DNA from: Roseicyclus sediminis
Lineage (GTDB): Bacteria > Pseudomonadota > Alphaproteobacteria > Rhodobacterales > Rhodobacteraceae
Direction of reading: 5' to 3'
Length of the DNA stretch: 64,000 nucleotides
NCBI RefSeq assembly: GCF_025515305.1
Contig: NZ_JAOPHT010000003.1
Coordinates: 310,001 to 374,000 of the forward strand
Below the pieces are notes generated by a model. That model made no database searches and was not told the origin of the DNA. It worked only from the letters and a program-made list of their open reading frames with translations. Made by a program: the position numbers and the translations under genes. Below, piece after piece: positions 1,905 through 5,212 of this stretch; within the stretch, counting starts at the first letter, position 1; the number at the start of each line of letters is the position of its first letter.

Positions 1905-2192
1905 TCAGACGCCCTGCACGATGCGCAGGTCGGTGTCGGCGATGGCCTCGCGGATCGTCCGGGCGGCGGTGTATCCGGCCGATTCGTAGAAACGGCGCGC
2001 GGTTTCGACGTCGTCGAACTCGACGATGACGGAGATCCCCTCGAGCTCGCCCTCGCGAAGCTCCGGTGCCGGGTCGCGGGCAAGAACGCGACCGCCATAC
2101 TCCGCGATCACCGGCGCCGAGGCCTCGGCAAAGCGCTGCATCCCGGCGCGGTCTCGGGCGCGGATGTTGGCGACGATGTAGCCCTTCGGCAC
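1905..2192 (-). CDS. DUF1330 family protein
   Basis: A 95-aa protein beginning MPKGYIVANI, the typical opening of the DUF1330 ferredoxin-like-fold family, with the conserved ...VIVEFDDVETARRFYES... type region in the second half. The start is a GTG at 2192 preceded by a strong GGGAGGA 7 bases upstream; an ATG at 2246 would add unconserved residues. Small dimeric alpha-beta barrel proteins of this kind are often of unknown role. It precedes the L,D-transpeptidase gene on the same strand. Confidence 0.8.
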   Translation of the reverse strand: MPKGYIVANIRARDRAGMQRFAEASAPVIAEYGGRVLARDPAPELREGELEGISVIVEFDDVETARRFYESAGYTAARTIREAIADTDLRIVQGV

Positions 2193-2259
2193 GATGTGAT
2201 CCTCCCATTCTTCCGGTCCGGGGTGCGGGCGTAACCCGCACGTCATCTGCCGCCGAAGG

Positions 2260-3369
2260 TTAGAACATGTGCCCGGACTTGTCCCGTTTCACCGCGAGGT
2301 AATGGGCATTGTGGCGGTTGGTCCCGGTTACCAGCGGAACGCGTTCGGCGACGGCGATTCCCTCGGCTTCCATCATCTCGACCTTGCGCGGGTTGTTGGT
2401 CATCAGCCGGACCGAGCCAAATCCCATCCGCCTGAGGATGTCCGCCCCGATGCGGAAGTCGCGTTCGTCGTCCTCGAAGCCAAGCCGGTGATTCGCCTGC
2501 ACCGTGTCGAAGCCCTGATCCTGAAGGGAATAGGCCCGCATCTTGTTGGCGATGCCGATGCCGCGCCCCTCCTGGTTGAGGTAGAGCAGGACGCCCGCCC
2601 CTTCGCGCCCCATTTCGGCCAGCGCGGTCCGGAGTTGCGGGCCGCAGTCGCACTTGAGGCTGCCCAGCACGTCGCCCGTGAAGCAGGCCGAATGAAGGCG
2701 GGCCAGGACCGGCGCGGCGCGGTCCGGTTTGCCGATCTCGATGGCGAAATGTTCCACCCCGCCGTTGTCCGGCCGGAAGATGTGCAGGCGCCCCGCCTCC
2801 GACGCCTCCATCGGCAGGCGCGCGGCGGCGACAGGCAGCAACTCGTGATGGAGCGCGAGGTCCTCGGCGGCAGCGACCGCGTCCAGCCGTGTCAGATCAT
2901 GCGCCACGGCCAGAGCGGCGGCGTCCTGCGCCGGAACCGTCAGCACGGCGGGAAGAAGTTGCGCGGATTTCGCGAGAAGCAGGCCAAGACGATGCAGCGA
3001 CGCGTCTCCCTCCCGCAGGGTGCGCAAGGGGCCCTTCATCGGCGCCATGAGGTCGCGCGCGGGATCGGCCAGGTCGCGCAGCCAGTCCGCGCCGACGTCC
3101 TGCGGCATCACCACGCGGGCGAGGTCCCCGTCATAGGCCCGCGCCTTGAGGGTTTCCGCCCGCCGCGCGGTGATCGCCACCACCACGGGTCCGCCGAGCG
3201 CGCGCATGCCATCGATCCGTTCGGCGCGCGCGGTTTCCGCGGCCAGCAGCACCAGGGCGCCCTGCGCCCCTTCGAGGACGACGGGCAGGCCCATGCGCAG
3301 GTCGGCCCGCGCTCGGGCGACACGCTCGGCGGTACTGGGAAGAAGGGGCATGCGCGGATCGCGTTCCAT
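2260..3369 (-). CDS. ribA: GTP cyclohydrolase II with N-terminal extension (riboflavin synthesis)
   Basis: A 369-aa protein. Residues about 190-369 are a complete GTP cyclohydrolase II: zinc ligands Cys229, Cys240 and Cys242 (CFTGD...LKCDCG), NQEGRGIGIANKM, the DERDF motif and the C-terminal TNNPRK region. The enzyme opens GTP, releasing formate and pyrophosphate, in the first step of riboflavin synthesis. The first 180 residues resemble a degenerate RibB-type domain without obvious catalytic residues, a layout I know from other Rhodobacteraceae. The gene is divergent from the CenR-like regulator. ATG at 3369 chosen; an internal ATG at codon 7 is possible. Confidence 0.92.
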   Translation of the reverse strand: MERDPRMPLLPSTAERVARARADLRMGLPVVLEGAQGALVLLAAETARAERIDGMRALGGPVVVAITARRAETLKARAYDGDLARVVMPQDVGADWLRDLADPARDLMAPMKGPLRTLREGDASLHRLGLLLAKSAQLLPAVLTVPAQDAAALAVAHDLTRLDAVAAAEDLALHHELLPVAAARLPMEASEAGRLHIFRPDNGGVEHFAIEIGKPDRAAPVLARLHSACFTGDVLGSLKCDCGPQLRTALAEMGREGAGVLLYLNQEGRGIGIANKMRAYSLQDQGFDTVQANHRLGFEDDERDFRIGADILRRMGFGSVRLMTNNPRKVEMMEAEGIAVAERVPLVTGTNRHNAHYLAVKRDKSGHMF

Positions 3370-3516: not shown

Positions 3517-4203
3517 ATGGCCACTCTGAAGAAGATTCTGCTAGTCGACGACGACGACGACCTGCGCGAGGCACTGTCCGAGCAACTCGTCATGACCGAG
3601 GATTTCGACGTGTTCGAGGCCGGGTCCGGCTCGCAGGCGATGGAACGCGCCAAGGAAGGTCTCTACGATCTGGTGATCCTCGACGTCGGCCTGCCCGACA
3701 CCGATGGCCGCGAACTCTGCCGGCTGATGCGCAAGCAGGGCGTGAAATGCCCGATCCTGATGCTCACGGGCCACGACAGCGACGCCGACACGATCCTCGG
3801 CCTCGACGCGGGCGCCAACGACTATGTGACGAAGCCGTTCCGCTTCCCCGTCCTGCTGGCCCGCATCCGCGCCCAGTTGCGCCAGCACGAACAGTCCGAG
3901 GACGCGGTGTTCCAGCTTGGGCCCTATACCTTCAAGCCCGCGATGAAGCTGCTCGAGACGGAGGACCTGAAGAAGATCCGCCTGACCGAGAAGGAAACCA
4001 ACATCCTGAAATTCCTCTATCGCGCCCAGGCGGGCGTGGTGGCGCGGGACGTCCTGCTGCACGAGGTCTGGGGCTATAACGCGGGTGTCACCACGCACAC
4101 GCTTGAGACCCACATCTACCGCCTCCGCCAGAAGATCGAGCCCGACCCCTCGAACGCCCGGCTTCTGGTGACCGAGAGCGGGGGTTACCGCCTCGTGGCA
4201 TGA
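3517..4203 (+). CDS. cenR: OmpR/PhoB-family response regulator, CenR-like
   Basis: A 228-aa regulator with a receiver domain (acidic pocket DDDDD at 11-15, phosphoacceptor Asp56, Lys106 in VTKPF) and a C-terminal winged helix ending in RLRQKIEPDP...GGYRLVA. The linker RIRAQLRQHEQSED is the feature I associate with CenR, an essential orphan regulator of cell-envelope genes in Caulobacter and Rhodobacter. No histidine kinase is adjacent, which fits an orphan. GGGAGG lies 10 bases before the ATG. It faces ribA across a 147-bp divergent region. The CenR name is from memory of the family; the OmpR-type assignment is certain. Confidence 0.8.
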   Translation: MATLKKILLVDDDDDLREALSEQLVMTEDFDVFEAGSGSQAMERAKEGLYDLVILDVGLPDTDGRELCRLMRKQGVKCPILMLTGHDSDADTILGLDAGANDYVTKPFRFPVLLARIRAQLRQHEQSEDAVFQLGPYTFKPAMKLLETEDLKKIRLTEKETNILKFLYRAQAGVVARDVLLHEVWGYNAGVTTHTLETHIYRLRQKIEPDPSNARLLVTESGGYRLVA

Positions 4204-4238
4204 CGGTGCAAACCGCTGGGTTTCCTTACCCTTGCGGG

Positions 4239-4281
4239 TTGACGCAGATCAAATCGCAACCAGAGGTTGCTGATTTAGAAT
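4239..4281 (+). promoter_or_regulatory. FNR/FnrL-type box and -10 element (candidate class II anaerobic promoter)
   Basis: Positions 4239-4252 read TTGACGCAGATCAA, one base from the TTGAT-N4-ATCAA consensus of FNR/FnrL. A -10 element TAGAAT lies at 4276-4281, predicting a start near 4287. The box centre (4245.5) is then about 42 bases upstream, the class II spacing at which FNR activates directly. There is no good -35 hexamer, as expected for an activator-dependent promoter. Transcription from here would run into the terminator at 4308-4337. Confidence 0.65.
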
Positions 4282-4286
4282 TGCTC

Positions 4287-4337
4287 CATTACCTCCCTGT
4301 TGGACTTGGCCCGAACCTCGGTTCGGGCCTTTCTTTT
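4287..4337 (+). ncRNA. Candidate FNR-controlled small RNA (about 50 nt)
   Basis: The predicted start (about 4287) and the intrinsic terminator ending near 4337 define a transcript of about 50 nt with no open frame. Its single-stranded 5' part contains ACCTCCCTG, complementary to Shine-Dalgarno sequences, followed by a stable GC hairpin with a CTCG loop and a T-rich tail. Anti-Shine-Dalgarno seed plus terminator hairpin is a common architecture of trans-acting Hfq-dependent regulators in alphaproteobacteria. I do not recognise the specific family. It could instead be a terminated leader of xthA. No expression evidence. Confidence 0.5.
4308..4337 (+). terminator. Rho-independent terminator
   Basis: A 9-bp perfect stem GGCCCGAAC/GTTCGGGCC (4308-4316 with 4321-4329), CTCG loop, followed by TTTCTTTTT. 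It lies 105 bases beyond the CenR-like gene and 87 bases before xthA. Confidence 0.9.
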
Positions 4338-4423
4338 TCCAGGCCGCGATCATCGCCCGTTCCCGGGTTGAGGCACGCCGGCCGGGGGACTAGGGTCGCG
4401 CGGCCTGACAGACCGGAGCCGCC

Positions 4424-5212
4424 ATGCCCTTCACCCTCGCCACCTGGAACATCAACTCCGTGCGCCTGCGCGCCGACCTCGTCGTGAAGCTTCTGACCGA
4501 GGAAGCGCCGGACGTTCTTTGCCTGCAGGAATGCAAGTCGCCGGTGGAAAAGATCCCGGCCGAGGTCTTTGCCGCGGCGGGCTATGGCCACATGGTCGCA
4601 AGGGGGCAGAAGGGCTACAACGGCGTCGCGATCCTGTCCAAGCTTCCGCTCGAGGATGTCGGTCACCGCGATTTCTGCGAGAAGGGCGACGCCCGCCACG
4701 TCGCCGCGCGGCTGGAGAACGGGACGGTCATCCACAATTTCTACGTGCCTGCGGGCGGGGACGAACCCGACCGGGAAAAGAACGTGAAATTCGGCCACAA
4801 GCTCGATTTCCTGACCGAGATGCGCGACTGGTTCCATGGCGACCGCCCGGAGAAGTCGATCCTCGTGGGGGATCTGAACATCGCCCCGCGCGAGGACGAT
4901 GTCTGGAGCCACAAGCAGCTCCTCAAGGTCGTCAGCCACACGCCCATCGAGGTGGAGCACCTGGGCAAGGTGCAGGACTCGGGCGGCTGGGTCGATATCA
5001 CCCGCCGCGATATTCCCGAGGGCCTCCTTTATTCGTGGTGGTCCTACCGCGCGCCCGACTGGGACGCCGCGGACAAGGGCCGCAGGCTCGATCACGTCTG
5101 GGCCACGCCCGACATCGCGAATGCCGCCCACGGAAGCCGTATCCTGCGTGCGGCGCGCGGCTGGACGCAGCCGTCAGACCACGCTCCGGTCTTCGCGACC
5201 TTCGATCTCTGA
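4424..5212 (+). CDS. xthA: Exodeoxyribonuclease III
   Basis: A 262-aa EEP-fold nuclease/AP endonuclease. Motifs run in order: WNINSVR at the N-terminus, LCLQECK with the metal-binding Glu at about 36, GDLNIAP in the middle, LDHVWAT and the C-terminal SDHAPV with the catalytic His. The enzyme cuts abasic sites and removes 3' blocked ends in base-excision repair in the cytoplasm. Length is standard. It begins 87 bases after an intrinsic terminator, so it must have its own promoter or read-through. Confidence 0.93.
   Translation: MPFTLATWNINSVRLRADLVVKLLTEEAPDVLCLQECKSPVEKIPAEVFAAAGYGHMVARGQKGYNGVAILSKLPLEDVGHRDFCEKGDARHVAARLENGTVIHNFYVPAGGDEPDREKNVKFGHKLDFLTEMRDWFHGDRPEKSILVGDLNIAPREDDVWSHKQLLKVVSHTPIEVEHLGKVQDSGGWVDITRRDIPEGLLYSWWSYRAPDWDAADKGRRLDHVWATPDIANAAHGSRILRAARGWTQPSDHAPVFATFDL

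Follow-up and report, generated by a model that had tools for sequence, protein, structure and literature searches.

A 64,000-nucleotide (nt) stretch of Roseicyclus sediminis DNA (the window; contig NZ_JAOPHT010000003.1, positions 310,001 to 374,000) probably carries, in the 3' untranslated region (UTR) of cenR, a small RNA gene of the SorX type that has its own FnrL-activated class II promoter and whose product silences uptake genes. In window numbering, with every feature on the + strand, an FNR-type FnrL box, TTGACGCAGATCAA, occupies 4239 to 4252 and keeps equal spacing in related loci; the -10 element TAGAAT (4276 to 4281), matching TATAAT at five of six bases, lies 23 nt past it; the family core CCTCCCTGTTGGAC (4292 to 4305), which holds the anti-Shine-Dalgarno seed, is matched exactly in family genomes; and an intrinsic terminator with a 9-base-pair stem and a T-rich tail follows at 4308 to 4338, its nine pairs and 4-nt loop being formed by GGCCCGAAC-CTCG-GTTCGGGCC (4308 to 4329), after which comes TTTCTTTTT. 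For a class II promoter one expects the start site about 41.5 nt from the box centre and a -10 element some 22-24 nt past the box; by this spacing transcription would begin at about 4287-4288 and yield an RNA about 50 nt long (4287 to 4338). A sequence-only reading of this DNA had proposed the box, TAGAAT at the class II distance, the CCTCCC core and the strong terminator, and all four are where it placed them; its reading of the layout, that of a gene for a short RNA in which a class II FNR promoter precedes an anti-Shine-Dalgarno core and an intrinsic terminator, is supported, box, core and terminator all being kept in relatives. The same reading held that neither neighbouring gene explains the element, which is not borne out: the predicted start is 84 nt past the cenR stop codon, i.e. 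in the cenR 3' UTR as for SorX, and the locus is the counterpart of SorX.

The arrangement of related loci points to a promoter belonging to this RNA. A scan of one genome per species in 84,980 species for the box, 32-46 nt and the core returned 41 loci at class II spacing, all of which were then scanned with Rfam (15 + 13 + 13); since these loci were picked by that pattern, it is their gene context, copy order and -10 elements that are independent of the choice. In 40 of the 41, cenR lies within 1.6 kb of the FNR-type copy (the other, L074, ends at a contig edge and has xthA). Eighteen loci (L066-L068, L070, L071, L076, L077, L079, L081, L083, L085, L086, L090, L094, L097, L101, L103 and L104) have, nearer cenR, a canonical SorX that scores above the Rfam threshold and lacks a strict box and, farther from cenR and beyond the SorX terminator, a distinct FNR-type copy that stays below threshold. 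The box sits directly on a canonical SorX in five loci (L075, L080, L082, L091 and L099), and 17 have, like the window, a single FNR-type copy and no canonical SorX; L074 was not classed. Because the FNR-type copy is a separate unit beyond the SorX terminator in 18 of the 41 loci, a private FnrL promoter is the simplest reading of these arrangements. One of the 18, L067, has three family copies behind one cenR at 2161-3050, two of them canonical SorX and one FNR-type. In canonical SorX itself (L071 2857-2929, L077 2543-2617 and others), a CCC before the 5' hairpin could pair with a GGG in the loop; the resulting H-type pseudoknot is missing from the Rfam structure line.

The promoter geometry can be followed beyond the window. 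Among 41 distinct spacers, taken from 43 sequences (the 41 loci plus L003, which is the window, and L008), hexamers resembling a -10 element are enriched 21-25 nt past the box, with a mean best match to TATAAT of 3.46 against 2.69 for shuffled spacers (0 of 300 shuffles as high), while five other placements give only 2.2-2.8. The 4.14-Mb genome has 38 matches to the box pattern TTGAYNNNNRTCAA, for which the base composition of the window predicts about 1.8, and none to its reversed form. The genome encodes FnrL (452 bits on NF045989, cut-off 300), and surroundings were read for 15 of the boxes: five of these adjoin fnrL/hemN, ccoN (two boxes), ccoG and a hupD-type gene. The identical box TTGACGCAGATCAA has a second copy at L203 8891-8904 (G000:C18:23890).

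Between the box and the -10 element lies a feature that the sequence-only reading had missed, the palindrome GCAACC-AGA-GGTTGC (4256 to 4270), which forms a hairpin in 86-nt and 135-nt folds. A palindrome of the form RCAACY-NNN-RGTTG stands exactly 3 nt past the FNR box in 16 of the 17 single-copy FNR-type loci, with the inner CAAC/GTTG identical throughout the 16, and is absent from L088. It could be the 5' hairpin of a longer, cenR read-through RNA, or the operator of a second regulator. By analogy with the 75-nt SorX, a longer form cut from the cenR mRNA would run from about 4256 to 4338.

Membership of the family is evident from the core. The 14-nt core stands unchanged in 70 of 80 family genomes, with 133 copies in all and between one and three in each genome that has it; the reversed core gives 1 match. 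When 4225-4345 served as a DNA query against 61 genomes, 26 of the 37 inside the family matched and none of the 24 outside it. The box at 30-50 nt before the core is found in 10 of 295 family genomes, our own included, with no match for the reversed control; chance would yield far under one genome (1.66 cores per genome, about 1e-5 per core by the base composition of the window). Close relatives retain the arrangement, the loss of which the sequence-only reading had named as a refutation: all four other genomes of the genus in that search (L004, L006, L007 and L008), and G015 (L005), have the strict box 38-39 nt before the core, and the box stands at the window spacing in six of the 11 cenR-linked genomes that were fetched, a sample that takes in 30 of the 36 places matched in the DNA search.

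At gathering thresholds, Rfam has no match anywhere in the window; permissive searches bring up the SorX and SorY models at the predicted RNA. The best model is SorY (RF02651; 44.9 bits at 4263-4336, gathering score 111), followed by SorX (RF02784; 34.3 bits at 4258-4335, gathering score 46.6) and suhB/MmgR (RF00519; 34.3 bits, gathering score 41). The core ACCUCCCUGUUGGAC, with an intrinsic terminator, is common to the SorX of the R. sphaeroides type and to the window RNA; the core-adjacent 5' hairpin of the SorX model is missing here, with GCAACC-AGA-GGUUGC further upstream instead. Because these scores fall under the thresholds for SorX, SorY and MmgR, we label the window RNA as SorX-related, judged by its position, core and terminator, and not as SorX itself. 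All three models align at window 4262-4344 below threshold, and they may belong to one superfamily. The genome has two copies of the core, one at the window locus and one at C22:261181. The latter (L002 1454-1554; G000:C22:261172-261225) has an identical core, is SorY-like below threshold, and follows a LysR regulator, with one open reading frame between it and purL. Six loci of this second kind were read: a LysR regulator is upstream in all six and purL downstream in four, purL being called by eye and confirmed by NCBIfam only in L002; five are SorY-like at 56-59 bits, none reaching the SorY threshold, and two of these five (L011 and L017) pass that of SorX. A literature search with the core sequence, in RNA and in DNA letters, found no paper.

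The predicted 52-nt RNA has a fold z-score of -4.8, none of 200 shuffles folding equally well, and its CCUCCC is unpaired in the centroid fold and paired at two of six bases in the lowest-energy fold. It contains no ATG, and a coding RNA was set aside.

Periplasmic solute-binding proteins stand out among the candidate targets. The pattern CAGGGAGG, 3-10 nt, ATG has 35 matches in the genome (two of them one site) against 3 for the reversed control; nine of the 30 matched loci that were read look by eye like solute-binding proteins, and six of the 35 precede genes found by PF13416, PF03480 or PF00496 (12 + 11 + 11 genes). We set these 34 solute-binding-protein genes (8 in the sampled stretches, 26 elsewhere) against the 679 remaining called genes of a 0.84-Mb sample made up of the window, C22 1-400 kb and C11 1-374 kb. 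The mean duplex energy with the core region is -17.9 for the 34 and -14.0 for the 679 (p 1e-7), and relative to the mean of 100 shuffled extensions it is -1.7 and +0.6, respectively (p 7e-5). When the second half of the core was shuffled 200 times, no control reached the real mean difference of -3.9, and two reached the real difference in strong sites; since the controls average -1.7, part of the energy effect reflects the strength of the ribosome site. GGGAGG is present upstream of 15 of the 34 solute-binding genes and 68 of the 679 others, CAGGGAGG of 6 and 7, and CAAC of 11 and 51, whereas AGGAGG is found at none of the 34 and at 26 of the 679. One further candidate line of evidence, a 12-nt antisense word before ATG (61 genomes, 34 rows), was dropped because 28 of the 34 rows overlap family cores when coordinates are compared; within the window, this word with at most one mismatch has 3 matches (one being the gene's own other strand) against 2.5 expected.

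From these elements we propose that, at low oxygen, FnrL would bind 4239-4252 and RNA polymerase would start near 4287, giving an RNA of about 50 nt that would stop at the terminator. CCUCCCUGUUGGAC near its 5' end would then pair, in trans, with Shine-Dalgarno regions that read (CC)AAC(A)GGGAGG, which would lower the translation of nutrient-uptake genes, chiefly those for periplasmic solute-binding proteins. As for SorX, a longer form probably arises from read-through of the cenR mRNA as well, so that the RNA would have a dual origin.

Published work on Rhodobacter sphaeroides bears on both ends of this proposal. SorX is the former RSs2461 (PMC5036791), and its host gene RSP_0847 is cenR (PMC9275681). 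SorX inhibits potA, which belongs to a polyamine transporter, at the level of translation (PMC9438474), and takP is a published SorY target, potA and takP both being transport genes. Chromatin immunoprecipitation sequencing placed an FnrL peak in the putative promoter region of RSs2461, the regulatory influence of which could not be established there (PMC4263372); the peak may belong either to SorX or to another, FNR-type copy. The passages found hold no link of SorX or SorY with AbcR or with solute-binding proteins. SorX is reported to be cut by RNase E from a transcript that it shares with cenR, in dependence on RpoHI/RpoHII, and a published table lists co-transcription from an RpoHI/II promoter (PMC3320616). 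Since SorX is reported to arise by processing, the RNA may also be made by a route other than FnrL.

That report is the first of several points that weigh against the proposal. As to the promoter, 10 of the 15 genomic boxes read have other or unassigned surroundings, the 41 loci conserve box and core by construction, 285 of the 295 family genomes lack the strict box-core pattern, and of the 11 fetched cenR-linked genomes four carry the core and no strict box, while L013 has its box 68 nt before the core. As to the targets, ACAGGGAGG (1 of 34, 3 of 679) shows no significant enrichment, the ribosome sites of solute-binding genes are stronger in general (p 5e-6), for which the shuffles allow in part only, and 11 of the 34 show no gain over controls; the gene starts were set by a script with a bias towards strong sites, that of one DctP gene (L222) looking wrong, and the two best duplex energies among 687 called genes do not, by eye, belong to transport genes. 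These two sites, in L048 (G000:C11:296163-296179, - strand) and L059 (G000:C22:259929-259946, - strand), precede genes that look by eye like a glutamate synthase and an indolepyruvate oxidoreductase, and the second site is about 1.2 kb from the SorY-like copy.

The position of the window RNA, which is that of SorX after cenR, together with the boxless genomes just mentioned, would also be expected if the RNA came only from processing of the cenR mRNA, the FNR box being a bystander or serving read-through or xthA. We consider this unlikely: in the 18 tandem loci a canonical SorX precedes an FNR-type copy that forms a gene of its own, the class II spacing of the -10 elements is retained, and the terminator at 4308-4338 separates the box from xthA. 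Far less probable still is that the element is the plain terminator of cenR with an FNR-like box by chance. A terminator is expected after a gene, and terminator-like sites by themselves are unremarkable (4 in 3 kb against about 2.1 expected by chance); the conservation speaks against this reading, with the exact core so widespread in the family, a stem following the core in the loci inspected, the same core at an unlinked locus of the same genome, and 40 of the 41 box-core loci at cenR.

It is also conceivable, though we think it improbable, that the RNA is real and driven by FnrL and acts by titrating a protein or ribosomes, CCUCC mimicking the 16S tail, with no specific pairing to mRNA. The core does hold an anti-Shine-Dalgarno-like CCUCCC, and the invariance of 14 nt could be protein-driven; the invariant word, however, continues through GUUGGAC, which is not known to be part of the 16S tail, its complement (CAAC) recurs at the solute-binding-protein sites as counted above, and SorX and SorY have published mRNA targets. 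The reading that we prefer remains an FnrL-promoted, SorX-type RNA that would pair with mRNAs of uptake genes.

Two genes flank the locus. The cenR gene (3517 to 4203, +), an OmpR-family response regulator reading frame, corresponds to the gene that hosts SorX; among 67 NCBIfam matches of its product the best 25 are response regulators, every one under its own cut-off, and the cenR of related loci is 81-97% identical to it where the match is near full length. Downstream, xthA (4424 to 5212, +) encodes exodeoxyribonuclease III (TIGR00633, above cut-off).

A broader proposition, which we regard as evenly balanced between right and wrong, is that such RNAs form a distinct anaerobic class of SorX, transcribed by way of FnrL, about 50 nt long and starting at the anti-Shine-Dalgarno core. 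Some Rhodobacteraceae would have this class as an additional gene following canonical SorX, and in the clade of the window it would be the sole cenR-linked copy found; together with SorX (stress, cenR mRNA) and SorY it would constitute three inputs into one seed that silences solute-binding-protein mRNAs. If true, low oxygen would throttle nutrient uptake by means of one RNA word that the family has in common. FNR-type genes, tandem and single-copy alike, would put a concrete gene, start and length behind a published FnrL peak of unestablished effect, and the shared seed predicts a solute-binding-protein regulon in which SorX, SorY and the window RNA would take part in one oxygen and stress control of uptake.

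Compared with known systems, the window RNA resembles SorX in its place after cenR, its core and its terminator layout; it differs in having no 5' hairpin by the core, another palindrome, and a class II FnrL promoter layout. With SorY it has the core and terminator in common, and with suhB/MmgR a CCUCCCU followed by GACUU and a terminator, although it scores below the threshold of each model. GcvB and AbcR are anti-Shine-Dalgarno RNAs that act on many transporter mRNAs, and the window RNA would work in a like manner; neither family name appears among the Rfam match lists, in which AgvB (anti-GcvB) stands at 17.4 bits against a threshold of 56. FnrS of Escherichia coli is a short, FNR-controlled RNA that represses mRNAs in the absence of oxygen, and the proposed action of the window RNA is again alike. 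RSs2461 is described, in a passage of the FnrL study, as having no sequence similarity to FnrS (PMC4263372). The SorX family of RNAs is already known, and what is new here is an apparently FnrL-promoted form of that family, not a new type of system.
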